Source of the DNA: Nitrospiria bacterium
GTDB lineage: Bacteria; Nitrospirota; Nitrospiria; DASWJH01
Length of the DNA stretch: 64,000 nt
Reading direction: 5' to 3'
Assembly: GCA_036397255.1 (NCBI GenBank)
Contig: DASWJH010000107.1
Span: forward strand, 1-64,000
Below, piece after piece: positions 7,748 to 25,029 of the stretch. Position numbers and translations under genes: made by a program. How positions within the stretch are numbered: position 1 is the first letter of the stretch; the number at the start of each line of letters is the position of its first letter. Under the pieces are notes generated by a model that saw only the letters and a list, made by a program, of their open reading frames with translations, was not told the origin of the DNA and did not search any database.

Positions 7748-8623
7748 TCAAAATTTCAACCTCTTTAAATAATTACGGAACTCCTTCCCCAACTCCTTGT
7801 TTTTCAAGCCAAATTCAACTGTCGCCTTTAAAAATCCAAGTTTATCTCCAGCGTCATACCGTTTTCCCTGAACCATATAGGCATATACCGGTCCCTGCTC
7901 AACCAGGTTTCTAATCCCATCGGTTAATTGAATTTCCCGGTTTCGCCCCGGCTTTGTCTTTTCAAGGCTTTCAAATATTTCTGGAATCAGAATATACCGG
8001 CCGATCACAGCTAAATCCGAAGGGGCTTGATCAATCGAAGGTTTTTCAACCAGATCTTCTACCAAATATACCCCCTCTTCTATTTCTTTCCCCTTAATAA
8101 CCCCATAATGTGAGACCTCTTCTCGTTCGACGCGCTGGATAGCAATGACAGGGGATTTCACTTCATTGAACAAGTCAACCATCTGTTTTAAAGCAGGTTT
8201 GGGAGAATCAATGATATCGTCTCCTAACAAAACAGCAAAGGGTTCATCCCCTACCAGATTTTTTGCACATAATATGGCATGACCCAAACCAAGCGGGTGC
8301 CGTTGCCTCACATAACAAAAATCAGCAAGCTCGGATATTTTTCTTAACTCCTTTAAAAGGGAATGTTTTCCACCTTCTTTTAAATTTTCCTCCAACTCGA
8401 AAGAAATATCAAAATGGTCCTCGATGGCACGTTTTCCTCTCCCCGTAATTATGATAATTTCCTGAACACCTGAATTTACGGCCTCCTCCACGACATATTG
8501 CACCAAAGGTTTATCTACCAATGGTAGCATTTCCTTGGGAGAAGCCTTGGTTGCGGGGAGGAACCGTGTTCCCAACCCCGCGACGGGGAAAACAGCTTTA
8601 CGAACTCTGGCTTGCTCACTCAT
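7748..8623 (-). CDS. galU: UTP-glucose-1-phosphate uridylyltransferase
   Basis: Makes UDP-glucose from UTP and glucose-1-phosphate, feeding envelope polysaccharide and lipopolysaccharide synthesis. The 291-residue length fits bacterial GalU. The N-terminus shows the nucleotidyltransferase signature VAGLGTRFLPATKASPKEM at about residues 14-32. Further on are LLGDDII, which gives the metal-binding Asp, VEDLVEKPS and GRYIL, all typical of the family. It is a single gene: coaE and lon are over 190 bases away on either side. Function is confident; the pathway it feeds is not shown by the neighbours. Confidence 0.95.
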   Translation of the reverse strand: MSEQARVRKAVFPVAGLGTRFLPATKASPKEMLPLVDKPLVQYVVEEAVNSGVQEIIIITGRGKRAIEDHFDISFELEENLKEGGKHSLLKELRKISELADFCYVRQRHPLGLGHAILCAKNLVGDEPFAVLLGDDIIDSPKPALKQMVDLFNEVKSPVIAIQRVEREEVSHYGVIKGKEIEEGVYLVEDLVEKPSIDQAPSDLAVIGRYILIPEIFESLEKTKPGRNREIQLTDGIRNLVEQGPVYAYMVQGKRYDAGDKLGFLKATVEFGLKNKELGKEFRNYLKRLKF

Positions 8624-9050
8624 CCTAATAACACCCTTTTGAAGGTCCCCATCGGCTAAAAAAGAGATACTTAAAAAATATATTCTCTTTCAGTGATTCT
8701 CGAAATCCGTTTCTCCCCATGCCCAAGACTTCACCCCTCATTATTAAAGCCATCAGCTATTTACGAAAACCCACACCTTGTAAAAACCAAACCTCCTTGT
8801 GACAGTTGTTTTGGCCACGTTTGATCCCAGATTAATAAAAACAGGTCAAATCTGGGAGTCGCAAGGTGTCTTGAAGATTGGACAGTTCCGGGGGTTGGAC
8901 AATTAAAGGTAAGTACATTTTACAAGCGAACCCAATAAAAAGTCAAGGCAATGAGCGTTTCTCCTCCCCCCTAATCCCACCTCCTATTCCCAATGTCAGG
9001 CTTTTCTTATATTAAAAAAATAAAAGATCGAGAAAAAGACAAAAAATGAA
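8624..9050. other. gene-free stretch between galU and coaE
   Basis: No plausible gene in 427 bases. It holds an inverted repeat CCCAGATT (8827-8834) and AATCTGGG (8850-8857). Overlapping this is GGTCAAATCT at 8845-8854, the reverse complement of a ten-mer that appears twice near 62806-62831. The direct repeat TTGGACA occurs twice around 8880-8900. The galU promoter should lie in the part near 8640-8700, but I see no clear consensus boxes. Confidence 0.55.
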
Positions 9051-9653
9051 TTACGCCAACCCAGACAATTCCAAAAAAATTTCTTCGACCCTTTCTCTGA
9101 TCTGATCAATGGGTTCCCCACCATCAATTATATAATCTGCATATTGTCTTTTTTCCTTTAGGGGAATTTGGGAATCCACCCGCTTTTTAGCCTCATCCCG
9201 GGTCAGATTGTCCCGTTCCACCAATCGCTTGAGTTGTAGTGCCCGATTGACATAAACCAAAATAACCTTATCCATTAGTTCAAAACTTCGGGTTTCAATA
9301 AGCAAAGGAACATCAAAGATAATAACCGCTTGGGGATCACGATCAACGATCGCTTTTCTTTGCCTTTCTTCTTCTGCAAAAACCCGAGGGTGAACAATGG
9401 CATTGAGCTCCTCTCGTTTTTCCGGATCATCAAAGACAATTCTTCCCAGTTTTTTTCGGTCAATAGACTTATCAGGCAGGAGAATCTCTTTTCCAAAGGC
9501 CTCTACAATTTTCCCCCATGGAGGGCTAGAGGGAGAAATCACTTCATGGGCAATTCGATCCGCATCGATAATATAAGCCCCTCTATCCCGGAAAAGGCCC
9601 GAAACCACACTCTTTCCACTAGCAATCCCACCTGTCAGGCCAGCCAAAATCAT
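9051..9653 (-). CDS. coaE: dephospho-CoA kinase
   Basis: Phosphorylates the ribose 3'-hydroxyl of dephospho-CoA, the last step of coenzyme A synthesis. At 200 residues it has the usual length. The P-loop GLTGGIASGKS sits at about residues 5-15, the DADRIAHEV motif near 31, and HPRVFAEE and FDVPLLIE, which line the substrate site, further on. The C-terminal DYIIDGG is also characteristic. It stands alone between galU and bamD, both on the same strand, with gaps of 427 and 157 bases. Confidence 0.95.
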   Translation of the reverse strand: MILAGLTGGIASGKSVVSGLFRDRGAYIIDADRIAHEVISPSSPPWGKIVEAFGKEILLPDKSIDRKKLGRIVFDDPEKREELNAIVHPRVFAEEERQRKAIVDRDPQAVIIFDVPLLIETRSFELMDKVILVYVNRALQLKRLVERDNLTRDEAKKRVDSQIPLKEKRQYADYIIDGGEPIDQIRERVEEIFLELSGLA

Positions 9654-9810
9654 TTACTAAACCGCTTCCCTTTCCCTTTGGGAAGATTTTTATGGGAATT
9701 ACTTTAAAATCTCTCCAAAGGAAAAAGCCCTCTTAAATGAAAGATCGGAGAAAAGACACCCAAAAATTCCATAGGTCCCTCTTTATTTTTTTCTCCTTTC
9801 CGAGAGATAT

Positions 9811-10557
9811 CTAATCCTCAAATTCCGTTTCCACGTAATGCTCGGCCAAATCTTCCTGGGTATTAAGGGATTTTAAATATTTTACGGCTTTTTCATGATA
9901 GGGGCTTTTGGGGTATTCCGTAATGAGTTCTTGGAAAGTCAAAGTGGCTTTTTCGGGAATCCCGCTTAATTGATAGGACCGACCTAAATAATAAAGAGCA
10001 CCAGTGATGGTTGGGGTATCTTTAAAATCCTTGAGAATTCCTTGAAAGCGGGAAACGGCAGCCGGGTATGAATTTTTTTTATAATAAAAACGGCCAACAT
10101 AAAATTGATAGGCGGCTAACCGTTCACGGCAAAAATTGATTTTTTCCTTGGCAAGGGTGGTGTATGGAGAATCCGGATATTTTGCCAGAAGGTTTTGAAA
10201 AGCATGGAGAGCCTTTTGCAACGGCTCCTGGTCTTGATCAATGGACCGAATTTGGTGAAAATAACTCATTCCTAATTTAAAATGAGCATATCCCGCAAAA
10301 CGATGGAGGGGGTGGAGATCTAGAAACCGCTGATATTCCCCTGAGGCTTCAATATAACTTTTGTCCCTGTAGTAGGCTTCGGACCGCTTAAGCAGTGTTA
10401 GGGGATCATAACTTTTTTCTAAAGATCCTTCGGTGGCCTCAAGGATCTTTTCATCAATTTCAAGATTAGGGAGATAGGGCTCTTCTGCTTTAGATGAAAA
10501 CCAACTGCACCCCCCCAAAAACAGAATACAAAAAACGGAAATTGCTTTATTTTTCAA
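9811..10557 (-). CDS. bamD: outer membrane assembly lipoprotein BamD
   Basis: Lipoprotein component of the BAM machine that inserts beta-barrel proteins into the outer membrane. The 248-residue protein starts with a signal peptide and a lipobox LGGC, giving a lipidated Cys17. TPR-like helical repeats follow (for example RSEAYYRDKSYIEASGEYQRF and the segments around FKLGMSYF and YYLGRSYQL), matching the YfiO/ComL family. The start is TTG at 10557, with a GGAGG site a few bases upstream. Presence of this gene supports a diderm cell. It is divergent from the PP2C gene across a 305-base gap. Confidence 0.9.
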   Translation of the reverse strand: MKNKAISVFCILFLGGCSWFSSKAEEPYLPNLEIDEKILEATEGSLEKSYDPLTLLKRSEAYYRDKSYIEASGEYQRFLDLHPLHRFAGYAHFKLGMSYFHQIRSIDQDQEPLQKALHAFQNLLAKYPDSPYTTLAKEKINFCRERLAAYQFYVGRFYYKKNSYPAAVSRFQGILKDFKDTPTITGALYYLGRSYQLSGIPEKATLTFQELITEYPKSPYHEKAVKYLKSLNTQEDLAEHYVETEFED

Positions 10558-10862
10558 TGGGCCTCCAAGGTCATGCCCTTTTCCAAAAAAATTTTCGCTA
10601 AGCTATCAAAGATGAGGGTTAATAGCAAGATTTAAAAAATTATACCTACTCGAGTTCCAAAAAGGATTCTGCAGGGTTTTCCTTTCCATCCCTATTCTTA
10701 CCAATTTTGTCCAAATCCCTTTTTCTAACAGCTGTAGTATACCATGAAATCGGGCACCCCCCTCAACTCCAAGAAACATTCTGAATTTTATTCAAATGGA
10801 GCAATTCAAATTTCCTTGACTCAAATATAACGATCAGATAGAATCCCGGCGGTGGGGAGGAA
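10558..10862. other. divergent promoter region, bamD / PP2C
   Basis: No gene in these 305 bases. It carries the PP2C promoter (10816-10844) and must hold the bamD start signals: on the minus strand a TATAAT lies at about 10640-10645, without a good -35 box. Nothing else is recognised. Confidence 0.6.
10816..10844 (+). promoter_or_regulatory. sigma70-type promoter for the PP2C-UPF0182 pair
   Basis: TTGACT (10816-10821) and TAGAAT (10839-10844) are separated by exactly 17 bases, and the start codon follows 18 bases after the -10. Each box has five of six consensus bases. The ribosome binding site GGGGAGG lies just before the ATG at 10863. Confidence 0.65.
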
Positions 10863-11594
10863 ATGAAAATACGAATCGTAGGCGGAACCGATCAGGGAAA
10901 ACATCGAAAGTCCAATGAAGATGCGTATGGAATCTTTGAAGACCTAAACCTTGCCGTGGTCGCTGATGGCATGGGGGGGCACGCCGCAGGAGAGGTGGCC
11001 AGCCGCCTCGCGGTTGAATCGGTCTATCAGACCATCCTTCAAAATCCTCCGGGGGAACCCACCCAACTTTTAAATCAAGCCATTCTAAACGCCAATGCCC
11101 GTATTTTAGAGACCGCAAAGAAAGATCCTGCATTAACAGGAATGGGCACCACCATTGTGGTCCTTTTAATTTCTGGAGAGACTGCCCATATCGGCTATGC
11201 AGGGGACAGTCGGGTTTATTTATTCAGAAAATCAACCCTCAAACAACTCACTGAAGATCACTCCCTGGTTGGAGACTATATTCGAAAAGGCCTTCTGACC
11301 CCTGAAGAAGCACAAAAAAACCCTTTAAAGCATGTCATTACCCGGGCTTTGGGAACCAGTGAACCTTTAAAGGTCGATCAGGTATCTCTTCCCCTGGAAG
11401 AAGATGATATTTTCCTTCTTTGCTCTGATGGTTTAAGTAATATGGTGAACGATGAAGATCTCCAGGGGGAGATTTCTTCCGGGGACCAAAACCTTGAAAC
11501 CTCCTGCTCTGGGTTGATCCAATTGGCAAATAAAAATGGGGGAGCAGATAATATTACGCTGGTGCTCCTCCAATGTCAGAAGAACTCATCCTAA
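10863..11594 (+). CDS. PP2C-family Ser/Thr protein phosphatase
   Basis: Metal-dependent (PPM) phosphatase of the bacterial Stp/PrpC type, which removes phosphate from Ser/Thr residues of proteins. The 243 residues form a single catalytic domain with all main motifs: KSNEDAYG near residue 19, VADGMGGHAAGE near 36, GMGTT near 95, AGDSRVYLF near 114, LTEDHS, ITRALG, LLCSDGLSN and GGADNITLV at the end. The metal-binding Asp residues are present, so it should be active. Its stop overlaps the UPF0182 gene by 22 bases, so the two are probably co-translated. No partner Ser/Thr kinase is visible in the window. Confidence 0.93.
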   Translation: MKIRIVGGTDQGKHRKSNEDAYGIFEDLNLAVVADGMGGHAAGEVASRLAVESVYQTILQNPPGEPTQLLNQAILNANARILETAKKDPALTGMGTTIVVLLISGETAHIGYAGDSRVYLFRKSTLKQLTEDHSLVGDYIRKGLLTPEEAQKNPLKHVITRALGTSEPLKVDQVSLPLEEDDIFLLCSDGLSNMVNDEDLQGEISSGDQNLETSCSGLIQLANKNGGADNITLVLLQCQKNSS

Positions 11595-14308
11595 AAAAAC
11601 CAATGATTCCCTTTCCCCGCAAACTCATTGTATTCCTTATTCTCTTCCTCCTAATTCTAATTTCTGGAGGAGACCTCCTTCGCCTGTACGTTGATTGGCT
11701 CTGGTTTCAGGAAATTCAATATGAAGAAGTTTTTAAAACCACGCTTTTTACAAAAATTCAAGTGGGATTATTTTTTGGCATCGGTTTCTTTCTGATTCTA
11801 TTCCCAAACCTTTACTGGGCAATTAATCGTCGCCAAAACCAACTTTGGGTTTTCTTAGAGACCCAATTTTCGGTTCCTCTGGCCCCCATTTTACGCCCTC
11901 ATTTGAACAAAATCGTTTTTTCTGTTTCGGTTTTAATTTCACTTCTCATTGGAATCAGAGAGTCCACCCAATGGAAAAGTTTTTTACTCGCAACCCATTC
12001 TGTTCCCTTTGGCCTTACTGATTCTTTATTTCAAAACGACTTTGGGTATTACGTATTTCAATTTCCCTTTTTGGTCCATATTCAAAGCTGGATTCTATCC
12101 AATCTCTTCCTGGTTACCATTTTGACGGCGATTATTCTCACATTAAACCAAGGAATCCAAATTCTTCCACAAGGGGTTTCCCTTCTTCGAGATGCCCGTG
12201 TTCACCTTTTTACACTTGGGACTTTGATTCTTTTTTTAAAAGGTTGGGGTTACCATTTAGAGACCTATCAGCTTCTCTTTTCCCAACGGGGAGTGGTATT
12301 TGGAGCGGTCTATGCCGATGTCAATGCGCTCCTTCCGGTTCTAAAGGTTTTGGTTTGGGTTTCTCTTTTGGCCGGCGCTATTCTCCTTACCAGTGCCTTT
12401 CGAGAAGGGTGGCTCCTTCCCTTAGGGGCCATTGGATCGGTCCTGATTATTTCCATCGCGGGTGCCTCTATTTTTCCAGACCTTCTCCACCGGTTAAGAG
12501 TTGCCCCCAATGAAATTGTCAAGGAAACTCCTTATATTAACCAAAATATCAGCCAAACGCGTTTTGCTTACGGCCTGAATAAAATTGAGGAAAAAGAATT
12601 CCCTGCCGAAGAAAATCTAACAAAAAACTCTTTGATCCGAAATGATCTCACCATAAAAAATATTCGACTTTGGGACCATGGTCCTCTCTTGGATACCTAC
12701 CGACAACTCCAACAAATCCGCCCCTACTATGACTTTGTGGATGTGGATAATGACCGTTACATGATCAACGGGGAATACCGCCAGGTAATGCTCTCTCCCA
12801 GGGAATTATCCTATCGCAATCTCCCGGGTGGAGAAAACTGGATTAACGAACACCTGACCTACACCCATGGCTTTGGGGCCACCATGGGTCCCGTGAACCG
12901 CATATCTCCTGAAGGGCTTCCGGAATTCATCATTAAAGATATTCCCCCTTCCTCTGACTCGAATATCATGATTAAACGACCGCAGATCTACTATGGGGAA
13001 ATTACAAATGATTATGTTTTTGTAAAAACCAAGGCATTGGAGTTTGATTACCCCATTGGAGACAAAAACCAATATTCTAACTACGTGGGAGAGGGAGGTG
13101 TTCCGATTTCATCCCTCCTCAGAAAACTTCTTTTTTCTATTAAATTTAAAACCATTAAAATTCTTCTCTCCAATGATATTACCTCTGAAAGCAAAATCAT
13201 GTTTTACCGAACCATTCGGGAAAGAGTAAACATGATTGCCCCTTTTTTCATTTATGATCAAGACCCCTATTTGGTGATCTCTGATGAAGGAAACCTTTAT
13301 TGGATCATGGACGGTTATACAACAACCGCTCAAATTCCTTATTCTCAACCCGCCCTCCGGAACGGGGAAAATTACATTCGAAATTCAGTCAAAGTGGTGA
13401 TCGATGCTTATCAGGGGACGACCTCTTTTTATATCAGTGATCCTGAAGACCCGATTGTCAATAGTTTCTCAAAAATCTTTCCAGTATTATTCAAACCCAT
13501 GGAAGAAATGCCACCGGATTTAAAATCACACATCCGCTATCCTCAAGACATGTTTAAACTTCAGGCCAATATGTTTGCCACTTACCATATGCAGGACCCA
13601 CAAATATTCTATAACAAGGAAGATCTTTGGTTTATTCCCAAAAAAGGGGAAAAGGATATTGATTCCTACTACACCATCATGAAACTTCCCAAAGAAGACA
13701 AAGAAGAGTTTATTTTAATGATTCCGTATACCCCAGCCCGGCGAGACAATATGTCCGCTTGGCTGGCAGCACGCTCGGATGGGCCCCATTATGGAAAGTT
13801 GATTGTGTATCTATTTCCAAAACAAAAACTTATTTTCGGTCCCCGCCAAATTGAAGCCCGAATTGACCAGGACTCTTATATTTCCCAACAATTAACCCTC
13901 TGGAGCCAAAGAGGCTCCCAGGTTATTCGGGGAAGCTTACTGGTCATTCCCATTGAGGAATCCCTTCTTTATATTCAACCCCTCTATCTAGCAGCAGAAG
14001 CGGGACAGCTCCCGGAATTAAGGCGTGTTATTGTTGGTTATGGCAACCAGCTTACCATGGAGAAAAACCTTGAAGCCTCCTTAAGCAATATTTTCGGGGG
14101 TGAAACTACCGAAAGAATCGGTTCAGGCCCTTCGGATCAACCTCAGACCTCACCTGAAACGGATTCAACGATCAAGGAGTTAATCCAACTGGCGGTAGAC
14201 CATTTTCAAAAGGCCCAAACTTTCCAAAAAGAAGGAAATTGGGCGGAATATGGAGAAGAACTCAATCGCTTAGAAAATGTTCTAAGAGAACTAACCCACC
14301 ACAAATAA
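11573..14308 (+). CDS. UPF0182 family membrane protein
   Basis: Large integral membrane protein of a widespread family (UPF0182, PF03699) whose function I do not know. The N-terminal third has about seven hydrophobic segments (around residues 15-35, 60-80, 108-125, 165-185, 210-225, 255-275 and 285-305). A long soluble, probably extracytoplasmic, part follows, with family-like stretches such as IRLWDHGPLLDTY, YYDFVDVDNDRY and YPQDMFKLQ. The 911-residue length fits the family. It overlaps the PP2C gene by 22 bases. The first ATG has no clear ribosome site, so an ATG at 11603 is an alternative start. Confidence 0.88.
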   Translation: MSEELILKKPMIPFPRKLIVFLILFLLILISGGDLLRLYVDWLWFQEIQYEEVFKTTLFTKIQVGLFFGIGFFLILFPNLYWAINRRQNQLWVFLETQFSVPLAPILRPHLNKIVFSVSVLISLLIGIRESTQWKSFLLATHSVPFGLTDSLFQNDFGYYVFQFPFLVHIQSWILSNLFLVTILTAIILTLNQGIQILPQGVSLLRDARVHLFTLGTLILFLKGWGYHLETYQLLFSQRGVVFGAVYADVNALLPVLKVLVWVSLLAGAILLTSAFREGWLLPLGAIGSVLIISIAGASIFPDLLHRLRVAPNEIVKETPYINQNISQTRFAYGLNKIEEKEFPAEENLTKNSLIRNDLTIKNIRLWDHGPLLDTYRQLQQIRPYYDFVDVDNDRYMINGEYRQVMLSPRELSYRNLPGGENWINEHLTYTHGFGATMGPVNRISPEGLPEFIIKDIPPSSDSNIMIKRPQIYYGEITNDYVFVKTKALEFDYPIGDKNQYSNYVGEGGVPISSLLRKLLFSIKFKTIKILLSNDITSESKIMFYRTIRERVNMIAPFFIYDQDPYLVISDEGNLYWIMDGYTTTAQIPYSQPALRNGENYIRNSVKVVIDAYQGTTSFYISDPEDPIVNSFSKIFPVLFKPMEEMPPDLKSHIRYPQDMFKLQANMFATYHMQDPQIFYNKEDLWFIPKKGEKDIDSYYTIMKLPKEDKEEFILMIPYTPARRDNMSAWLAARSDGPHYGKLIVYLFPKQKLIFGPRQIEARIDQDSYISQQLTLWSQRGSQVIRGSLLVIPIEESLLYIQPLYLAAEAGQLPELRRVIVGYGNQLTMEKNLEASLSNIFGGETTERIGSGPSDQPQTSPETDSTIKELIQLAVDHFQKAQTFQKEGNWAEYGEELNRLENVLRELTHHK

Positions 14309-14647
14309 TTTAGCTTTTTCCGCATTTCCTCCACACCCCTAATATTGACAAATCTTTGTTTTTATTATAAACTTTCCTCTTGAAAACACTCCCAGGGGAA
14401 AAAACCTGAAGGAAAATTAAAACCCTTTTTATTTTCCAAAAGGAGATGAGTGACCTTTTACCCAACCTTTTCTTTTAAAAGGACCAAATTAGAAAAAGTT
14501 TTAAATATTGTCCTGATGACCCATGGAAATCCCACGGCTTTTTTAATTTAGTAGATCACATTTCAGTTTAGTTTAATTAAAAAATTTTTTTTTAAAAAAA
14601 AAGTTAAATTTTAGAAAAATTAGGTTTTTATTCTAATAAGGGGGGAA
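14309..14647. other. AT-rich leader before the signalling operon
   Basis: No gene. The last 80 bases are extremely AT-rich with A and T runs (14578-14640), ending in a GGGGGG ribosome site at 14640-14645 just before the start. No clear -35/-10 pair or sigma54 -24/-12 box could be fixed. AT tracts like this often act as UP elements or bend DNA, which is inference here. Confidence 0.5.
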
Positions 14648-16462
14648 ATGGAAAACCAAAAAGAACCCATTTCGATAATAAAAGAAAGGAGAGAAACCCC
14701 ACGTTTATTAGTGGGGCCTAACCAAAAAACATTCATTGAAATCGACGTTCCCTTCCCAAAGAATACAAAGCTCGTAAAAGAGGTCCTGGATTTAAGTTTT
14801 TCAGGTTTATCATTTCGAATGGCCCACCAGGAAGGCTTTTTTCTGCCCGGGACTCCACTTCAAAAAATTACAATAAATTATGGAAAAGAAAAAATAAAAA
14901 CAAACGCAGAAGTTGCTCATATTACCAACAGTCATCTCCCCACTTCTACCGAATACAAGGTAGGAATTAATTTTTTAGACCGAAATAAAAAAGGGAGAAC
15001 AATTTTAGGGAAAAATGTAATTGATACCACATTCCGGCCCTTAAGGTTTTCAAAAGAAGATTTCCCTGGAATTATCTTTGAAGTCGAATTCAAATTAAAA
15101 AACCGCCAATACAAAAAAGGGATTGTTAGCAATTTTTCAAGGTACGGTTTAAGTTTTCAATTTAAAAAAGAAGATTTTAAATTTAAAAAAGGGTTCATAT
15201 TTGAAAACATTATTCTTCTTGTCCAAAAAGAAGAAGTTTTTTCAGGGAAAGCAAAAATCATTCACCTTGAGGAAAATAAAATCGCGAGCATTTTAAGTGT
15301 AATGCTTTTGGATAAACCCTTGGATGTTGGCCTTATTTTTTCAATAAAAAAAATGAATGAATTAAAAGTAAAAAATATAGAAGAAATTAATTTTTTAAGA
15401 AATTTTGAAAAAATTGATCACAATTTTAAAGCAAATGTCGCAGATCTGAGGTACTTTTTGGAGGGTATCAAAAAAACATTAGACCAAAATGAAATTTTTT
15501 TTAAGGAAGAAAACGAAAGCACCCAGAAAATGGCAGAAAAATCCTTTTTAAATATTGTTGGGAGTCAAGCATTTGAAAAAATGGATGAAATTTTGGTTAA
15601 CCTTAATAAAAACACTAAAGAGTTTGATGAACAGGAACATGAATGCCATAAAGAATATTTTCAAAAACAGTTACACCATCTCTTTCTTCTCTCCCCTTTT
15701 GTTAAACGAGCATATATCAAACCTTTGGGTTACCCTGGCGATTATCAAATGATGGATATGGTTTACCGGGATGGAGATGAAGGCAACAGCCTATTTGCAA
15801 AATTAATCAACCGATATTCTTCCAAGCATATAGCGGCTGCTCAAGCAAGCCAAAACAGAATTCCATATTTGGTTTCAAAAATTGAAAGAACTGCGAAAAG
15901 AATCTTAAAATCTAAAAAAGCAGGGGTTGCCCGTATAGCAAGTATAGCCTGTGGTCCTGTTAATGAAATTTCCGAATTTCTGGCAAAAAGTTCAATAAGC
16001 CAAAAATGTGAATTCTCTTTAATCGATGTGGAGCCTGAGGCGCTTTATTTTTCTCATGAAAAGATTTTTGATTTCAAAACTTTTTTTGGAAATTGTGCAA
16101 AATTTAACCTGATAAATAAATCCGTAAAAAAACTGATACAAGAATCGAGAAAAACTTCCCCTCTACCTAACCAAGACCTCATTTACAGCGCCGGACTTTT
16201 CGAATATTTATCTGACCATACGGCTACCAAACTTATTGAGGTTCTTTTTAATTTTATTGCACCTAAAGGCTCATTAATTATAGGAAATTTTGGGGTTTCA
16301 AATGAATTTAAATGTTACATGGAATATGTTTCAGAATGGTATCTCTTTCACCGCACACAGGAACAACTCCTCTCCTTCTCCAAAGGGATTTCTTCCGCTA
16401 GGAAAGTTTATTGTGAATCTGAAAAAACCGGAATAAACCATTTTTTAATCTTGGAAAAATGA
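14648..16462 (+). CDS. PilZ domains fused to a PhcB-like SAM methyltransferase
   Basis: A 604-residue fusion. The N-terminus is a PilZ c-di-GMP-binding domain with the canonical pair RETPR (residues 15-19) and DLSFSG (48-53). A second, incomplete PilZ-like domain follows with NFSRYG at 162-167 but no clear RxxxR. The C-terminal half (about 270-604) resembles a class I SAM-dependent methyltransferase: KPLGYPGDYQMMDM near residue 358, the SAM-site ASIACGPVNE near 431 and acidic LIDVEPEAL near 458. The KPLGY-GDY signature recalls proteins annotated as 3-hydroxypalmitic acid methyl ester synthases (Ralstonia PhcB). Its stop overlaps the next start (ATGA). The methyl acceptor is unknown. Codon use is AT-richer than the neighbours. 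Confidence 0.75.
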   Translation: MENQKEPISIIKERRETPRLLVGPNQKTFIEIDVPFPKNTKLVKEVLDLSFSGLSFRMAHQEGFFLPGTPLQKITINYGKEKIKTNAEVAHITNSHLPTSTEYKVGINFLDRNKKGRTILGKNVIDTTFRPLRFSKEDFPGIIFEVEFKLKNRQYKKGIVSNFSRYGLSFQFKKEDFKFKKGFIFENIILLVQKEEVFSGKAKIIHLEENKIASILSVMLLDKPLDVGLIFSIKKMNELKVKNIEEINFLRNFEKIDHNFKANVADLRYFLEGIKKTLDQNEIFFKEENESTQKMAEKSFLNIVGSQAFEKMDEILVNLNKNTKEFDEQEHECHKEYFQKQLHHLFLLSPFVKRAYIKPLGYPGDYQMMDMVYRDGDEGNSLFAKLINRYSSKHIAAAQASQNRIPYLVSKIERTAKRILKSKKAGVARIASIACGPVNEISEFLAKSSISQKCEFSLIDVEPEALYFSHEKIFDFKTFFGNCAKFNLINKSVKKLIQESRKTSPLPNQDLIYSAGLFEYLSDHTATKLIEVLFNFIAPKGSLIIGNFGVSNEFKCYMEYVSEWYLFHRTQEQLLSFSKGISSARKVYCESEKTGINHFLILEK

Positions 16463-19248
16463 ATATTCCTGAAGGAATCCAAAAGGAATACCAATCATTT
16501 ATTCGTGACCTTAGCTTGGAACGTTTAAGGCTTGGGTGTATTTTATCCTTTACTCTGGTCCCTCTTTCCTCGGTTTTAGATTATTTAACCAACCCAGAAT
16601 TCTTTACTAAATTCCTTTATATTCGGATAATTTGTAGTTTTATAGCTCTCTTGATATTTCTAACAACGTTTTGGAATACCTCAAAGAAATATTCAACTAT
16701 TCTGGGAATAATACTAACCAGTGTTGTGGGAATATCCATTGCTCTAATGATCCGTTATCTTGGACACGAAACCCCTTACTACGCTGGCTTAAATTTAATT
16801 ATTCTAGCAATTGGTTTAATTTTTCCTTGGGGGCTCTTGGAAACTGCAATTGCCTGTACTTTAATCTATAGTTATTACATTGTTCCAATTCTTTTATTCG
16901 ATGTCATTAACAATTTCGCTATTTTTGCAAACAATAATGTTTTTATTCTTGAAACCATTGTAATTGCACTTGCCAGCAGTTACTTTAGTTCTACCCTACG
17001 GTTAAGGGAATTTAAATCCCGGTTTGAATTAAAAATGATTAATTTGAGATTAGAAGAAACAAAATCAAATTTAGAACAGGCCTATTCCAAACTGAAAGAA
17101 CTAGATGAAGTGAAATCCAAGTTCTTCTCCAATGTTTCCCATGAATTAAGGACTCCTCTTACCTTAATATTGGCTCCTCTCGAATCCATTCTAAAGGGAG
17201 AACTCGGGGAAATCAATTTCCAACAGAACAAACAAATCCAAATCATGTACAATAACGCTTTGAGGCTCCTTAAACTCATTAATAACCTGTTGGATCTTGC
17301 AAAAATTGACGCAGGGAAAATGGAGCTTTATTACAACCAAGGAAACATTGTGGAATTTATAAAAGGTATTGTGGCATCGGTTTCCCCAATGGCGGAAAAA
17401 AAGAAAATTCATCTAACTTTCTTAGAGGGAAATTCAGTTCCAGCTTTTTATTTTGATCGGGATAAGATCGAAAAAGTCATCTTGAATCTATTGTTTAACG
17501 CATTAAAGTTTACTGAATCAGGGGGAAACGTAACCGTTCGATGTGAACCCAACCGTAATAATAAGGAAGAAGTGGTAATCGATATTCAAGACACGGGCAT
17601 CGGAATTGCCGAAGAAGACATGCACAAACTTTTTTCCCGTTTCTCCCAAATCGATTCCTCTTCCACACGCCGTTTCGAGGGAACCGGCGTAGGGCTGGCC
17701 CTGGCCAAGGAAATTGTGGAACTCCATCAAGGTCGAATATGGCCCACCAGTGAATTGGGAAACGGAACCACAATGACCTTTACCCTCCCCTTAAAGCTTG
17801 ATCTTACGGGAGAGGGGGGAGTCGTTCACGAGGATCGGCGAAAAATCCAAAAACCGGTACTCCCAGAAAACCGGGATCAGGATTGGACCAAACATATTCA
17901 TACAGCCGCAGAATATAGTGGGGCAGGCCTTCTTATTGAAGAAAATACCCCGGATCCCCTGTCCCATAAAAAGCCGAATTCTGATCAGTTAACGATTCTC
18001 CTTGTGGAAGATAATCCAGATATGATCAACTTTATCGGTTTTCACCTCCACGAGGAATTCAACCTCCTAAAGGCGACCAATGGAGAAGAAGGCCTATCTT
18101 TGGGGTTCCAGCATGTCCCGGATCTCATCATTTCCGATGTGATGATGCCCAAAAAAAATGGTTATGAATTGTGCAAAGAAATCAAAGGGAATATCAGGAC
18201 AAAACATATCCCAATTATTTTACTAACAGCCAAGGCGGATCTTTCAATGAAAATTGAAGGACTGGAACATGGAGCAGATGATTACTTAACCAAACCCTTT
18301 AATGCACAAGAACTCAAGGCCAAGGTGAAATCTCTTTTAAATCAACGGAGGTTGGAAAAAGAGATTCAGTTAAGAAGCGAGGAATTGGAAGCGACCTTAC
18401 ATGCATTGACCGAAACACAGAGTCAGTTGGTCCATTCGGAAAAAATGGCGGCTTTAGGATTACTGGTTGCTGGAATTGCCCATGAAGTCAATAATCCCGT
18501 GAGTTTCGCAAAAGGAAGCCTTAATAACCTGAAAAGATCGCTGGATGACATAAACGAACATCTCAATACAGGTAAAGAAGAACCGGTTTCTGAGGAAACC
18601 CTTGGGGATATTAAAAACTCCATGGGAATTATCAAAAGTGGTCTGGAGAGAACAGAAGCCATAATCAAGGACCTAAAAAACTTTTTGCAAAAAGACCAAA
18701 TTCACTTTAAAATAAACGATCTCCATGCTGGCCTGGACTCCACTTTGAACCTTTTAAAACATGAACTTGGACAAGGGATCCAAGTGGAAAAACAGTATGG
18801 AGATATTGGAATGGTTGAAACCATCCCCAGTCAGCTCAATCAAGTTTTCATGAACTTGCTCCAAAATGCCATACACGCCATTCAGAAAAAAGGAGAGAAA
18901 AAAGGAGAGATTTCAATTAAAACGGAAAAAACCGACCAGGAAATTTTAATTTGCATCCGGGATTCGGGTACAGGAATGAAAAAGGAGGTTCTCTCCCACA
19001 TCTTTGAACCCTTTTTCACAACTAAGGAGGTCGGCGTGGGCACAGGTTTAGGACTTTCTGTCAGTCACCGGATCATATTAAATCACAATGGAACCCTAGA
19101 GGTCCAAAGCGAAGAGGGAAAGGGAAGTGAGTTTAAAATCTTGCTGCCGATAAAACAAAATGTAAAGGAAGACTCCCCCTCTCTTACGTCCGCCTCTATT
19201 CAGTTGAATCCTTCCCCAGGAAATGAGATCCATGGCCGCGGAAATTAA
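16459..19248 (+). CDS. membrane hybrid histidine kinase (HK-REC-HK)
   Basis: Sensor kinase of 929 residues. About six membrane segments occupy residues 25-190 without a large periplasmic loop, a layout seen in sensors of hydrophobic signals. A short coiled coil leads to HisKA with His228 in SHELRTPLT, then HATPase boxes DTGIGIAEED (near 378) and GTGVGLALAK (near 408). A receiver domain follows (about 510-625, phospho-acceptor Asp560 in SDVMMPKKNG, TKPF Lys). A second kinase core closes it, with His675 in GIAHEVNNP and GTGLGLSVSHR near 865. Both cores look intact. It starts inside the stop of the methyltransferase gene and overlaps the next gene, so the three are co-translated. By position it matches PhcS. 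Confidence 0.92.
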   Translation: MNIPEGIQKEYQSFIRDLSLERLRLGCILSFTLVPLSSVLDYLTNPEFFTKFLYIRIICSFIALLIFLTTFWNTSKKYSTILGIILTSVVGISIALMIRYLGHETPYYAGLNLIILAIGLIFPWGLLETAIACTLIYSYYIVPILLFDVINNFAIFANNNVFILETIVIALASSYFSSTLRLREFKSRFELKMINLRLEETKSNLEQAYSKLKELDEVKSKFFSNVSHELRTPLTLILAPLESILKGELGEINFQQNKQIQIMYNNALRLLKLINNLLDLAKIDAGKMELYYNQGNIVEFIKGIVASVSPMAEKKKIHLTFLEGNSVPAFYFDRDKIEKVILNLLFNALKFTESGGNVTVRCEPNRNNKEEVVIDIQDTGIGIAEEDMHKLFSRFSQIDSSSTRRFEGTGVGLALAKEIVELHQGRIWPTSELGNGTTMTFTLPLKLDLTGEGGVVHEDRRKIQKPVLPENRDQDWTKHIHTAAEYSGAGLLIEENTPDPLSHKKPNSDQLTILLVEDNPDMINFIGFHLHEEFNLLKATNGEEGLSLGFQHVPDLIISDVMMPKKNGYELCKEIKGNIRTKHIPIILLTAKADLSMKIEGLEHGADDYLTKPFNAQELKAKVKSLLNQRRLEKEIQLRSEELEATLHALTETQSQLVHSEKMAALGLLVAGIAHEVNNPVSFAKGSLNNLKRSLDDINEHLNTGKEEPVSEETLGDIKNSMGIIKSGLERTEAIIKDLKNFLQKDQIHFKINDLHAGLDSTLNLLKHELGQGIQVEKQYGDIGMVETIPSQLNQVFMNLLQNAIHAIQKKGEKKGEISIKTEKTDQEILICIRDSGTGMKKEVLSHIFEPFFTTKEVGVGTGLGLSVSHRIILNHNGTLEVQSEEGKGSEFKILLPIKQNVKEDSPSLTSASIQLNPSPGNEIHGRGN

Positions 19249-20410
19249 TTATAAAGAATACCAAATTCTTTTTGTGGATGATGAAGAATTTGCACAAATT
19301 ACCTTTAAAGGGCAATTTAAAAAGGAATTTAACATTAGCACAACCGGGAATGGGGAAAAAGCCTTAGATTTAATTGAAAAAGAGGAAGTTGCATTGGTTG
19401 TAACCGATCAACGGATGCCGGGAATGAGCGGTGTTGAACTCCTAAAGCACATAAAAGAAAGAAAACCTGATATCGTTCGAATCCTTCTCACTGCTTACTC
19501 AGATATGGACACCGTAATTGAAGCAATCAACTCAGGAAACATTTATCGCTATTTAACCAAACCTTATGAAGAGGAAGAGGTAAGGGCGGCTCTGAAACAG
19601 GGGTTAGAAAAATTTCACCTTGTAAAAGAGCGAAATAGATTATATGCTGAAAAACTGGAGACTATGAAGAAAATGGCCCGGACCAATCGTCTCACTGCCA
19701 TTGGAACCTTTGCAGCAGGAATGGCCCATGAAATACGAAACCCCTTGACCTCTATTAATACATTTATTACCATTGCTCCGGAAAGAAAAGATGATCGAGA
19801 ATTCCTTGAAAATTTTAGTAAAATTGCCCTTGAGGATGTCAACAGGATTTCACGTTTGGTTCAGGAAATTTTGGATTATGCCCGTTCATCTGAACCTAAA
19901 TTTTCTGAAGAAGACTTAAACGAAATCATTCATTCTTCTTTATTTTTCATTGGGATGGAAACAGAAAAAATGGATATCCGAATCCAGGAAGATCTTTCTT
20001 TAGAGGTACCTAGGATAATTTTGGACCGCCAACAAATGAAACAGGTTCTTTTAAACCTATTCATTAATGCAATGGATGCGATGGGCAAAGAGGGGGGAAC
20101 GATCCAAGTAAAAACCCACACCACTCAAAAAAACGGGTCCGATTGGGTCCAAATCGAAGTAAAGGATACCGGGCCTGGGATCCCTGAAGACTCATTAGAA
20201 CATATTTTTGATCCTTTTTATACAACCAAGCATGACAGTAAAGACAGAGAGGGGACTGGATTAGGGTTGGCCATTGTCCATCAAATCATTCAAGAACACG
20301 GTGGTTCTATTGAAGTTAAAAGCGAAATGGGAAAAGGAACTTCCTTTATCATAAACCTTCCGGTCAATCCTCTCCTTCATCGAAAAGCAAAACCACCAAT
20401 GCAGTTATAG
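19232..20410 (+). CDS. response regulator with C-terminal histidine kinase
   Basis: Receiver domain followed directly by a kinase core, with no membrane segment: a cytoplasmic relay protein. The receiver keeps the acidic pair (VDDEE), phospho-acceptor Asp in VVTDQRMPGMSG and the TKPY Lys. The kinase part has His in GMAHEIRNPLTS, about 107 residues after that Asp, N-box NLFINAMDAMG, DTGPGIPED and GTGLGLAIVHQ. I prefer the ATG at 19232, ten bases after AGGA, to the one at 19223. It overlaps the preceding kinase gene by 17 bases. REC-kinase architecture and position recall Ralstonia PhcR, an unusual regulator with a C-terminal kinase domain. Confidence 0.9.
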   Translation: MAAEINYKEYQILFVDDEEFAQITFKGQFKKEFNISTTGNGEKALDLIEKEEVALVVTDQRMPGMSGVELLKHIKERKPDIVRILLTAYSDMDTVIEAINSGNIYRYLTKPYEEEEVRAALKQGLEKFHLVKERNRLYAEKLETMKKMARTNRLTAIGTFAAGMAHEIRNPLTSINTFITIAPERKDDREFLENFSKIALEDVNRISRLVQEILDYARSSEPKFSEEDLNEIIHSSLFFIGMETEKMDIRIQEDLSLEVPRIILDRQQMKQVLLNLFINAMDAMGKEGGTIQVKTHTTQKNGSDWVQIEVKDTGPGIPEDSLEHIFDPFYTTKHDSKDREGTGLGLAIVHQIIQEHGGSIEVKSEMGKGTSFIINLPVNPLLHRKAKPPMQL

Positions 20411-20447
20411 TATTTTTTTTTTAGAACTAGAAGGAGTCTTGATTCCT

Positions 20448-21929
20448 GTGTCTGCACTTCAGGAGAGCTTACAGGTTTTTAAAACTGCCCCCCTTTCCCA
20501 ACCCCTTAACCTTTTGTTCGTTTACCCTGACCCAGAATTCTCTTTCCTAACCCGTAAAATTCTATCTGCCGATGGGGCAGTTTTTGAGGCAGGGACTGCC
20601 CGCGAGGCCCAAACTTTAATTCAAGCACACACCTTTCAAATTGCGGTCATATGTAAACTTGGGGACCAGCCCCCTTCTCACGATTCCTTAGATTTAATCA
20701 TCCATTTAATCGATCAACACCCCGATATTTTCATATACTTTTTTTCCGACCTACCGTTGGAGGGACCCTTCAAGGAATATCAACAGGGGGGCATTATAAA
20801 TCAAATTTCAACCTCTATGGATCAAATAAAACTAATTCAAGATCTTGCCAAAAGGATCGGAATAAAAGATTGGAAACAGAAACTGTTTTCATTTACGGAA
20901 CCTCTTCCCCCTTATGGAAAACACATTTTTCCATCTGAAATTTCAGAAAACTTTTTTCAAAACTCTCTCCCCAATGAGGTTGAAGAAATTTCTTTTCAAA
21001 ACATTGCGGATGAACCCCTTTTCCCAACTTTTTTAAAACAGGAAAAGAGGGAAATGATACCCCCTATCGAAATCCCAAAATTTTCTAACCATAAATTGCA
21101 ATTCCAGGATAATTTCACTACCTCTGAAAAACAACTCTTTTTCAAATTTTCGGACCCGACCCGTTTAATCAATTTCTTCACCCTGGAAATAGCCCACAAA
21201 ATCAAAAACCCTCTGGTTGCCATCAAAACCTTTACCGAGCTTTTGAAAGATAACTTTAATGATCAAGGTTTTAGAGAAGAATTTTATCCAATCGTCAAAA
21301 ATGAAATCGGAAAAATTGATCAAACCGTGGAATCTCTAATCGAATTTTCTGAACACCTAGACACGTTAACACCCCATTCCAATTTACTTCAAATTTTGGA
21401 GAACCAGGTTAAGGCCGTTAACCAAGAGGGGCAGGGAAAAATGAAGATATCCCCTCCATTACAGACGCTTTCCCCGTTTTTGATTGATGAATCAAAAGCC
21501 TCTTATACCTTTAAACTTCTATTCAATGCCATTAAGGAAAACCTGGGGGGGCTCCACGATATTGAAATCCAGACGGAACCATTACTTTCTGAATCCCCTC
21601 CTGGAGGATTAGTGATTACAATACTTTTCCCCCCAAAAAATTCCGTATCTGGGCCATTAAAGGGGTTAGACCTGATTTTGGCCCAATGGTTTATCGAAAG
21701 CCTAAACGGTCAAATCAAAGAAGATACCATCGGCACCCGTTCTGTTTTTAAGGTTATTTTCTATCCCTCTCTGAAGGAAACCACGGAAAGGTTTTTTTCA
21801 CACTCCCAGGAACCCATGTGTGATCGCCGTCAACACTCATTCCCATTAGCGTTTAAAGATCGCAGAAATTCCGAAAGGCGCATTAAATGGCTTCCCATTT
21901 CTTTCGGAGATCGGCGAGGGTCTCCCTAA
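20448..21929 (+). CDS. degenerate receiver-kinase protein
   Basis: About 494 residues. The first 125 resemble a receiver fold (NLLFVYPDPEFSF, then IAVICKLGD where LxxxD is expected), but no phospho-acceptor Asp is evident. After a linker comes a dimerisation helix with a kept H-box, AHKIKNPLVAIKTF, His at residue 250. The following ATPase-like part has LLFNAIKENLGG but lacks the DxGxG and GxGLGL loops, so ATP binding is doubtful. The C-terminus ends with repeated DRR motifs. GTG at 20448 is preferred to TTG at 20439 because AAGGAG at 20431-20436 is too near the latter. It follows the REC-kinase gene after about 37 bases and may serve as a phosphotransfer or scaffold protein. Confidence 0.7.
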   Translation: MSALQESLQVFKTAPLSQPLNLLFVYPDPEFSFLTRKILSADGAVFEAGTAREAQTLIQAHTFQIAVICKLGDQPPSHDSLDLIIHLIDQHPDIFIYFFSDLPLEGPFKEYQQGGIINQISTSMDQIKLIQDLAKRIGIKDWKQKLFSFTEPLPPYGKHIFPSEISENFFQNSLPNEVEEISFQNIADEPLFPTFLKQEKREMIPPIEIPKFSNHKLQFQDNFTTSEKQLFFKFSDPTRLINFFTLEIAHKIKNPLVAIKTFTELLKDNFNDQGFREEFYPIVKNEIGKIDQTVESLIEFSEHLDTLTPHSNLLQILENQVKAVNQEGQGKMKISPPLQTLSPFLIDESKASYTFKLLFNAIKENLGGLHDIEIQTEPLLSESPPGGLVITILFPPKNSVSGPLKGLDLILAQWFIESLNGQIKEDTIGTRSVFKVIFYPSLKETTERFFSHSQEPMCDRRQHSFPLAFKDRRNSERRIKWLPISFGDRRGSP

Positions 21930-21949
21930 ACCCCTTTGGAGAATAAACC

Positions 21950-23359
21950 ATGCATAGGCTCCTAGTTGTTGATGACGAATATAGTGTACGAGAATCAATA
22001 AAACTTATTTTAAAAAATGAATATCAAATTCTTTTTGCCTCTGAGGGGGAAGAAGCAGTTCAGTGTTTTGAAAAGGAACATCCCCACCTTATTATTCTGG
22101 ATATCCTTATGCCAAAGATGGATGGGATTCAGGTTCTTAAGAAGATTCGTGAGATTGACCCTATTCTTCCCGTTATTATGCTTACAGCAACCAAAACAGT
22201 AAAAACAGCCGTTGAGGCCATGAAGCTGGGGGCAACCGACTACATTACAAAACCCTTCGATGTGGAAGAAATTTCGATTCTAATCAAAAGGGCTTTAGAA
22301 AAGCAGGACCTTGAGCGGGAAGTAAAAACCCTTCGGTGGGAAGTCAAAAAGAAATTTGGATTCGGAAATATTTTGGTGGGAAAAAGCCCCCCCATGAAAG
22401 AAGTGTGTTCAAAAATTGAACAAATTGCTGATACCAGGACAACCGTTCTCATTACCGGGGAAAGTGGAACGGGAAAAGAACTGATTGCCAAAGCACTCCA
22501 TTATAATAGCTCCCGAAGGCACAAACCTTTCATCGCAATAAACTGTGCGGCCATCCCTGAAACCCTGATCGAAAGTGAGCTATTTGGCCATGAGCGAGGG
22601 GCCTTTACCGACGCAAGGGTTCGAAGGTTGGGTCATTTTGAAATGGCCAATTCGGGAACTCTTTTCCTAGATGAAATTGCGGATTTAAGCCCGGCCACAC
22701 AGGCCAAGCTATTAAGGGTAATTCAAGAAAAAGAATTTCTCCGTTTGGGAGGAACCCAAACAGTTAAAGTCGATGTTCGTTTAATTGCCGCAACCAACAA
22801 AAACCTGGAAAATGCGGTCAAAGAAAAATTATTTAGGGAAGACCTTTATTACCGGGTAAACGTTGTTTCGCTATTTCTTCCCCCTTTACGGAAAAGGAAA
22901 GAAGATCTCCCCCCTCTTATTCAACACTTTCTAAATAAGAAAGCGGAAGAAGAAAATAAAAAACCCAAACGTTTTTCGGACTCGGCAATGGACCTCCTTT
23001 TGAAGCATCCATGGCCTGGAAATGTTCGTGAATTGGAAAATATTATTGAACAAGTGGTCACCTTGACCCCAGAAGAGCTCATTACCCCTGAAAATCTCCC
23101 GGATAAACTGAATCGACAAATCCGGACGAATTCCCTCCGCGAAGAAACACTTTCTGGCAACATTTCTTTTGAGAATGCGCTTCTAGAATTTGAGAAAGAT
23201 ATTCTCCTCAGTGCACTAAGGAAAACAAACTTTGTTCAAACCCACGCAGCAAACCTGTTGGGAATTAGCAGGAGAATATTAAAATACAAAATGGATACTC
23301 TGGGTATAACTCCCCCCGACAGCCAGAACCCTGAGTCAAACCTCAGCGATCTCAATTAA
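21950..23359 (+). CDS. NtrC-type sigma54-dependent response regulator
   Basis: Activator of 469 residues: receiver (Asp51 in ILDILMPKMDG), AAA+ central domain (Walker A GESGTGKELIAKALH, Walker B GTLFLDEIADLS) and a C-terminal Fis-type helix-turn-helix (HAANLLGISRRILKYKMDTLG). The family uses ATP hydrolysis to open sigma54 promoters from upstream enhancer sites. The sigma54-contact loop is GAFTDA at residues 217-222 in place of the usual GAFTGA. Only 20 bases separate it from the degenerate kinase gene, so they probably form one operon and a regulatory pair. Targets are unknown; an NtrC-box-like palindrome at 40893 is one candidate. Confidence 0.93.
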   Translation: MHRLLVVDDEYSVRESIKLILKNEYQILFASEGEEAVQCFEKEHPHLIILDILMPKMDGIQVLKKIREIDPILPVIMLTATKTVKTAVEAMKLGATDYITKPFDVEEISILIKRALEKQDLEREVKTLRWEVKKKFGFGNILVGKSPPMKEVCSKIEQIADTRTTVLITGESGTGKELIAKALHYNSSRRHKPFIAINCAAIPETLIESELFGHERGAFTDARVRRLGHFEMANSGTLFLDEIADLSPATQAKLLRVIQEKEFLRLGGTQTVKVDVRLIAATNKNLENAVKEKLFREDLYYRVNVVSLFLPPLRKRKEDLPPLIQHFLNKKAEEENKKPKRFSDSAMDLLLKHPWPGNVRELENIIEQVVTLTPEELITPENLPDKLNRQIRTNSLREETLSGNISFENALLEFEKDILLSALRKTNFVQTHAANLLGISRRILKYKMDTLGITPPDSQNPESNLSDLN

Positions 23360-23895: not shown

Positions 23896-25029
23896 ATGCA
23901 AACAAAACCTAATATTCTAATTGTGGATGATGAAGCGGGTCCAAGAGAATCCTTAAAAATGATTTTAAAACCTTTTTATGGTATATATACCGCGGAAACG
24001 GGAGGAAAAGCTCTTCAAATCGTAGAAAAGGAAGAGATCGATTTAGTCACTTTGGATTTAAAGATGCCTGACCTTCATGGAACCGAGGTCCTCCGAGAAA
24101 TTAAAAAATTGAGCGGAGATGTAGAGGTAGTCATTATTACAGGATTTGGAAGCTTAAAAAGTGCGGTGGAAGGGATCCGTTTTGGAGCCTCTGATTATCT
24201 TTTAAAACCTTTTAACGTTTCTGAAATCGTCTCCATCATTAATAGAACATTAGAGAAAAAGAGACTTTATGATCAACTTAAAGGTTTCCTACAAGACCTT
24301 GGAAATTTGGTAGGTTTGGAAACAAATCTTAACGAAGTAAGAAATAACTTATCCGAGAAATACTCATTTCTGGAAGAGGTGAAAAGAATTCTTGATAAAA
24401 ATAAACCCGATTTGAAGGAAGAGGCAACCATTGGAAATCTGGAGTTTGCAAAAACATTGGCTGAATTGTTTGAAAGCAAAGACCTTTATTCCAAAGGCCA
24501 TTCCACCCGGGTTTCCCATTATGCCTTGCTCGTCGCACAAGAATTGAACCTTTCCCAAAAACAAAAGGAAATTCTACAAATGGGAGCCTATATCCACGAT
24601 ATTGGAAAAATTGGAATCGATAACAAAATCATATTGAAAGAAGAGAAATTTACAGAAGAAGAAAGGGAAGTGACCCGGAAACACCCTATCATCGGGGTAG
24701 ATTTAGTTTCCCCGATCGGAATCCCCCCTGAGGTCCTAGAGGTCATTCGTCATCACCACGAACGATTTGATGGTCTGGGATACCCCGATGGTCTTAAACA
24801 ACAAAAAATACCTCTTTTAGCGCGGATTCTTACCGTTGCCGATGCTTTTGACTCCATGGTCAATGATCAACCGTACAGAACGGGAATGCCTATAGGAGCT
24901 ATTCAATTAGAATTGGAAACCTGTAGCGGAACGCAATTTGATCCCGATATCGTTCAGACTTTTCTGAGCATAATCCGGGAGGAAAAAGACAAGCTTCTCC
25001 CCTTGAACCTAAACGAATCAACCTCTTAA
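23896..25029 (+). CDS. HD-GYP response regulator (c-di-GMP phosphodiesterase)
   Basis: Receiver plus HD-GYP, 377 residues, the RpfG arrangement. The receiver has Asp54 in TLDLKMPD and the KPF Lys. A linker helix leads to the HD-GYP domain (about 195-360) with HSTRVSHYA, the metal-binding HDIGKIG (His234-Asp235), and HHHERFDGLGYP near residue 287. The catalytic and GYP residues are all present, so it should hydrolyse cyclic di-GMP when phosphorylated. It lies 536 bases after the NtrC-type gene and is probably a separate unit. Together with the PilZ protein at 14648 it puts c-di-GMP turnover and sensing in the same region. Confidence 0.93.
   Translation: MQTKPNILIVDDEAGPRESLKMILKPFYGIYTAETGGKALQIVEKEEIDLVTLDLKMPDLHGTEVLREIKKLSGDVEVVIITGFGSLKSAVEGIRFGASDYLLKPFNVSEIVSIINRTLEKKRLYDQLKGFLQDLGNLVGLETNLNEVRNNLSEKYSFLEEVKRILDKNKPDLKEEATIGNLEFAKTLAELFESKDLYSKGHSTRVSHYALLVAQELNLSQKQKEILQMGAYIHDIGKIGIDNKIILKEEKFTEEEREVTRKHPIIGVDLVSPIGIPPEVLEVIRHHHERFDGLGYPDGLKQQKIPLLARILTVADAFDSMVNDQPYRTGMPIGAIQLELETCSGTQFDPDIVQTFLSIIREEKDKLLPLNLNESTS

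Follow-up and report, generated by a model that had tools for sequence, protein, structure and literature searches.

A distant Phc-type signalling operon in a Nitrospiria bacterium with an added, motif-intact PilZ domain on its putative signal synthase

Does a three-gene operon in a Nitrospiria bacterium encode a Phc-type system for fatty-ester communication, and could the PilZ domain at the start of its first gene place signal synthesis under c-di-GMP? The question is raised by a locus within a stretch of 64,000 nucleotides, the whole of which is called here the window. A sequence-only reading had described three overlapping genes, encoding a methyltransferase, a six-TM hybrid kinase and a receiver-kinase, and their positions, order and domains are as described. 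All three genes lie on the + strand, with overlaps of 4 bases between genes 1 and 2 and of 26 bases between genes 2 and 3. The comparisons below strongly support the view that they represent a distant form of the system by which Ralstonia and Cupriavidus communicate through fatty esters. The features are as follows.

14648..16462, + strand: gene 1 (604 aa), PilZ, PilZ-like barrel, helical region and PhcB-like class I methyltransferase
14684..14992, + strand: PilZ domain, residues 13-115 (Pfam PF07238, 27.0 bits against a cut-off of 22.5, E = 6e-6)
14690..14704, + strand: RxxxR motif, R15-ETP-R19 (RETPR), read from the sequence
14789..14806, + strand: DxSxxG motif, DLSFSG, residues 48-53, read from the sequence
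15038..15322, + strand: second, degenerate PilZ-like barrel, approximately residues 131-225 (NFSRYG), from profile and model
15377..15718, + strand: helical region, residues 244-357, also conserved in PhcB and in the solo relatives from this class
15719..16459, + strand: methyltransferase, with KPLGYPGDY (residues 358-366) and the predicted SAM-binding fold (426-603)
16459..19248, + strand: gene 2 (929 aa), PhcS-like hybrid kinase
16459..17103, + strand: PhcS/MASE8-type membrane sensor, residues 1-215 (hhalign and MASE8 Pfam)
17113..17796, + strand: first HisKA-HATPase core, residues 219-446, absent from PhcS
17995..18330, + strand: receiver domain, residues 513-624, absent from PhcS
18406..19173, + strand: second HisKA-HATPase core, closest to the PhcS kinase core
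19223..20410, + strand: gene 3 (395 aa), PhcR-like receiver (15-124) and kinase (161-382)

The KPLGYPGDY signature and the methyltransferase announced for gene 1 are both present, and the C-terminal half of the protein is clearly modelled as a class I methyltransferase fold. Pfam returned sub-threshold matches only for this half (Methyltransf_12, E = 0.22). The AlphaFold model of residues 250-604 is mostly at pLDDT 70-90, and Foldseek with the gene 1 model found class I methyltransferases in the PDB, the best of them being 3ocj (E = 9.5e-10). Starting from a match on a Paraburkholderia graminis plasmid (E = 4e-38), the reference search collected 80 named loci from Burkholderiales and relatives. 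In most Cupriavidus reference loci a methyltransferase (~463 aa), a kinase (443 aa), a receiver-kinase (377 aa) and a receiver protein (335 aa) follow each other in the order B-S-R-Q. The Phc references are the phcBSRQ operons of Cupriavidus and Nitrotoga, R. solanacearum's own sequences not being among them; phcBSRQ of C. necator JMP134, 56-75% identical to R. solanacearum, is the published counterpart of the Ralstonia operon (PMC2842291). Alignment of the window family (the window and two further genomes of the class, G026 and G036) with Burkholderiales PhcB by hhalign extends over residues 131-599, with a probability of 100, E = 4e-54 and 23% identity. Membership of a methyltransferase family unrelated to PhcB is thus not what was found.

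Residues 13-115 of gene 1 are assigned as a PilZ domain with both motifs intact. This N-terminal domain had been claimed from the letters alone, and the claim is borne out by the Pfam match above cut-off and by the presence of RETPR and DLSFSG. The second barrel had been missed in that reading. In profile comparison with the own-genome PilZ profile, the family alignment of the first barrel gave E = 2.3e-6, while the window barrel as a single sequence gave nothing useful (E = 0.014). The second barrel matched the PilZ profile at E = 0.0016, and its strands are modelled at pLDDT about 72-82. For residues 1-133 AlphaFold lacked aligned relatives (pLDDT 25-49), and its model gives no confident fold for 13-115; the PilZ assignment is therefore based on the Pfam match, the motifs and the profile comparisons. 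Searches of PDB sequences with the whole gene 1 protein, the PhcB profile and the PilZ piece returned nothing usable. Foldseek with both models listed methyltransferases only, which left no solved PilZ fold to set beside the barrels.

The N-terminus of PhcB alone aligns almost without gaps with the second barrel of gene 1 (hhalign, E = 2.7e-5), and in the AlphaFold model of a Nitrotoga PhcB six strands (20-95) precede the helices. From this alignment and the predicted strands, PhcB itself probably carries a degenerate PilZ-like N-terminal barrel, without PilZ motifs. Direct comparison of a PilZ profile with the PhcB N-terminus was null (E = 0.17, controls 0.18 and 0.5), and a Pfam search of PhcB N-termini found no PilZ; the link between PhcB and PilZ therefore runs by transitivity through the second barrel of the window, together with the predicted strands. 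Because the PhcB N-terminus corresponds to the second barrel, the unusual part of gene 1 is the extra, motif-intact PilZ in front.

The membrane domain of gene 2 has six TM segments and is MASE8 according to Pfam (26.9 against a cut-off of 26.2 bits). Its sensor aligns with that of PhcS nearly without gaps across 202 columns (hhalign, E = 2.5e-23, 28% identity), and its second kinase core is 31-35% identical to PhcS (blastp, E = 3e-39 to 1e-45). Relative to PhcS, the first kinase core and the receiver are insertions, as judged by these alignments. The histidine of the reference PhcS kinases is at position 231 or 230, which fits H230 of Ralstonia PhcS (PMC11960443). Gene 3 consists in Pfam of a receiver and HisKA-HATPase, without a DNA-binding domain; published descriptions of PhcR give a receiver followed by a C-terminal kinase (PMC2842291, PMC8578825). 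When references were queried against the genome of the window, the best match of PhcS was this operon, that of PhcR was gene 3 (E = 1.2e-31, runner-up 2e-11), and that of PhcQ was the gene 3 receiver (E = 1.8e-30, runner-up 3.6e-9). Profile alignments, own-genome best matches and gene order all agree with the likeness to phcBSR proposed at the outset.

No PhcQ-type fourth gene follows gene 3, the ORF at 20439 having only a HisKA match in Pfam. Directly behind the operon, a HisKA protein without a detectable ATPase domain (20439-21929, +) is followed by an NtrC-type sigma-54 activator (21950-23359, +). This pair (20439-23359) might be the output of the operon; no such pair lies behind gene 3 in G026 or G036. 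Located 3.5 kb downstream of the operon is a gene for a receiver and HD-GYP-type protein (23896-25029, +; PF13487, E = 1.3e-34). Its product is a candidate c-di-GMP phosphodiesterase, which may tie the locus to c-di-GMP turnover.

We lean slightly towards a reading in which a Phc-type synthase and the receptor for its signal form one module, with c-di-GMP as an additional input. Domain architecture, homology with PhcB, PhcS and PhcR, the conserved order of the three genes, the intact motifs of the PilZ in the window and the repeated coupling of this type of enzyme with this type of sensor are observed; signal chemistry, c-di-GMP binding, gating and downstream output we infer as follows. The gene 1 enzyme would use S-adenosylmethionine to esterify an acyl chain, most likely a 3-hydroxy fatty acid that is free or bound to a carrier, and its product would be a methyl ester. 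Binding of c-di-GMP to the N-terminal PilZ would alter the activity or the location of the enzyme, and the signal would therefore be made in one c-di-GMP state. Once outside the cell, the acyl ester would be recognised by the six-TM sensor of gene 2, which would set the HK-REC-HK phosphorelay, and phosphate would be passed from gene 2 to the receiver of gene 3.

The same three-gene order was sought in related genomes. In 270 genomes of the class, matches spanning both PilZ and methyltransferase were found, besides the window, only in G026 and G036, and both have the same three genes in the same order. With order and fusion repeated there, the layout is not a product of chance. In G026 the first barrel has kept its fold and lost RxxxR, which is the strongest argument against gating as a general property. 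G036 has also lost RxxxR in the equivalent barrel, and carries a further upstream PilZ (Pfam, E = 1.5e-17) with intact motifs. Directly upstream of this triple-barrel PilZ-methyltransferase, G036 has a second PhcS-type sensor kinase of 1013 aa (L047, 10067-13108).

Solo enzymes of about 400 aa, without PilZ, occur in the same class and have sensors of the same type as partners (E = 6e-55 for the sensor). In one of these loci (L049) the order is methyltransferase, sensor kinase and OmpR-type regulator, with gene lengths repeated in five more loci; as read from L049, the pairing of enzyme and sensor outlasts a change of output. In the tree, the fusions (window, G026 and G036) and the solo enzymes form one group beside PhcB, the node joining this clade to PhcB being moderately supported (85/73), and the PilZ fusions are not a separate clade within their group. 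Since close relatives in the same class do without PilZ, the module does not depend on gating.

Loss of RxxxR in G026 and in the equivalent barrel of G036 means that PilZ could be structural or serve protein contacts. The best placed alternative starts from here and accepts a Phc-type ester operon with a PilZ that does not gate, being a docking or stability module or a leftover of the barrel already in PhcB. It is in line with the motif-less PilZ-like barrel of PhcB, with G026 and with the entirely PilZ-free solo enzymes. We consider it rather unlikely, because both motifs are kept in the window copy, the added PilZ of G036 is motif-intact, and the PilZ domains on other enzymes described next have also kept their motifs.

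In four genomes (G004, G005, G010 and G025), the same TM-HK-REC-HK kinase follows a protein of 962-1046 aa which replaces the PhcB-like enzyme, and a REC-HK gene is visible in three of them. The protein consists of a PilZ, a second PilZ, a hydrolase-like region with invariant S, D and H, and a UbiE/BioC-type methyltransferase. In all four, the N-terminal PilZ retains both motifs. An acyl-CoA dehydrogenase gene precedes the gene of this protein. Dehydrogenases with their own N-terminal PilZ, 41% (G025) and 32% (G005) identical to the PilZ of the window, keep ERRxxxR. Three of the four members show a weak match of the hydrolase-like region to LuxD (PF02273; best E = 0.0074, under the cut-off), which makes "LuxD-like" a tentative name, and a PDB search with this piece gave chance antibody matches only. 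The proteins are located as follows.

L196, 8204-11164: PilZ-PilZ-hydrolase-like-methyltransferase protein
L197, 5911-9051: PilZ-PilZ-hydrolase-like-methyltransferase protein
L198, 5780-8695: PilZ-PilZ-hydrolase-like-methyltransferase protein
L059, 4968-7856: PilZ-PilZ-hydrolase-like-methyltransferase protein
L059, 7891-9393: PilZ-acyl-CoA dehydrogenase fusion, its PilZ being the closest found to that of the window
L197, 9815-11305: PilZ-acyl-CoA dehydrogenase fusion

Gating by c-di-GMP in the preferred reading draws its strongest indirect argument from the repeated appearance of PilZ on dissimilar acyl-processing enzymes, each next to the same receptor.

Many same-phylum relatives, on a separate branch of the tree, carry an N-terminal PilZ on a WPxGYQGDY-type methyltransferase. 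Among the papers searched, none connects PilZ with PhcB or with a signal synthase fused to it. The fusion is far less isolated than first supposed. Seven operons of such PilZ-methyltransferases (L178, L182, L183, L186, L189, L194 and L195) include two ketosynthase-sized genes, of which one has the KS histidine motif and the other lacks it, and each operon closes with a PhcS-type sensor kinase. In L183 and L178, family searches identified KS, ACP, FabG, FabZ and a CrtI/CrtD-like FAD enzyme. The L183 operon (8150-16548) comprises the PilZ-methyltransferase, FabG, two ketosynthases, ACP, a FAD desaturase and the PhcS-type kinase, and the other six loci are similarly composed; operons of this type are candidate dedicated acyl/polyketide signal clusters.

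Other members of the methyltransferase superfamily were observed in different settings. One has an N-terminal cyclic-nucleotide-binding domain (L057, 8377-9843), another second-messenger input on this enzyme class. One forms the C-terminus of a type I polyketide synthase on an Enterobacter ludwigii plasmid (L063, 2658-5795), and one, on a plasmid of Rhizobium sp. NZLR1 (L062, 4689-7903), lies beside a divergent gene annotated as a GGDEF-domain phosphodiesterase.

The same clusters give rise to an alternative without any diffusible signal, in which a membrane lipid or polyketide-like product is methylated and the kinase senses the state of membrane or lipid. The same-phylum relatives beside KS/KS', ACP, FabG, FabZ and the CrtI/CrtD-like FAD desaturase could yield a polyene pigment, and family members are also fused to type I PKS. 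The KS/KS'/ACP clusters nevertheless end in a PhcS-type sensor kinase as well, and the PhcB and PhcS homologues are an experimentally known signal and receptor pair (PMC8578825, PMC11960443), so we regard this alternative as unlikely. It is highly improbable that the operon is a two-component system joined by an accessory methyltransferase whose function is unrelated, with a convergent likeness to Phc: domains of the kinase and receiver types are widespread and Pfam by itself did not recognise the methyltransferase half, but the sensor is homologous to PhcS, the PhcB alignment is nearly full-length, and PhcS, PhcR and PhcQ have their best genome-wide matches in one operon, by margins of ~20 orders of magnitude for PhcR and PhcQ.

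Coupling of enzyme and sensor was also addressed across 296 same-phylum genomes. The sensor profile was found in 63 and the methyltransferase in 64, with both in 43 (Fisher p = 8e-21, a value which ignores kinship and carries no phylogenetic correction, the genomes being related by descent). Nearly half of the methyltransferase copies (31 of 69, in 30 genomes) are within 10 kb of a PhcS-type sensor; about 14 of these 30 genomes had contributed to the sensor profile, leaving only ~16 independent finds.

Extending the preferred reading, we tentatively propose, with confidence somewhat short of even, a class of c-di-GMP-gated acyl-signal systems. PilZ would have been joined repeatedly to the signal enzyme under one PhcS-type receptor, whether PhcB-like, a methyltransferase of the KS/KS'/ACP clusters, or the LuxD-like hydrolase-methyltransferase with its PilZ-acyl-CoA dehydrogenase, and the barrel of PhcB would be a remnant of that input. 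The repeated pairing of PilZ with other signal enzymes suggests an undescribed link of surface-lifestyle control with cell-cell signalling. If c-di-GMP controls synthesis of the signal on the synthase itself, a single protein, and not transcription, would join the change between motile and surface-attached living to signalling to neighbours. Phc-type signalling, known from beta-proteobacteria, would extend to another phylum, and the N-terminal domain of PhcB gains a concrete hypothesis. Because several operons have enzyme and receptor adjacent, signal chemistry could be matched to receptor by experiment.

Compared with phcBSRQ of the Ralstonia solanacearum complex and Cupriavidus, the operon shares the B-S-R gene order, the PhcB-like barrel, helical region and methyltransferase of gene 1, the PhcS-type six-TM sensor with its kinase core, and the PhcR-like receiver-kinase without a DNA-binding domain. 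It differs in the added N-terminal PilZ with intact motifs, in the HK-REC inserted into the PhcS-like kinase, in lacking a PhcQ gene, in its 23% identity to PhcB over the aligned part, and in belonging to another phylum, judged by kinship of the genomes searched. The PilZ-methyltransferase fusions of the same phylum (L178-L195) have in common with it the N-terminal PilZ, the methyltransferase superfamily and often a nearby PhcS-type sensor, whereas their enzyme is of the WPxGYQGDY type, on a separate branch and frequently in a KS/KS'/ACP/FabG/FabZ cluster. Operons L196, L197, L198 and L059 have the same TM-HK-REC-HK kinase, an adjoining REC-HK gene in three of four and a related PilZ, with hydrolase-methyltransferase and acyl-CoA dehydrogenase in place of the PhcB-like synthase. 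In MapZ-CheR1 of Pseudomonas aeruginosa a PilZ protein likewise acts on a methyltransferase (PMC12564702); there a separate adaptor meets a chemotaxis methyltransferase, whereas in the window PilZ is fused to the putative signal synthase itself.
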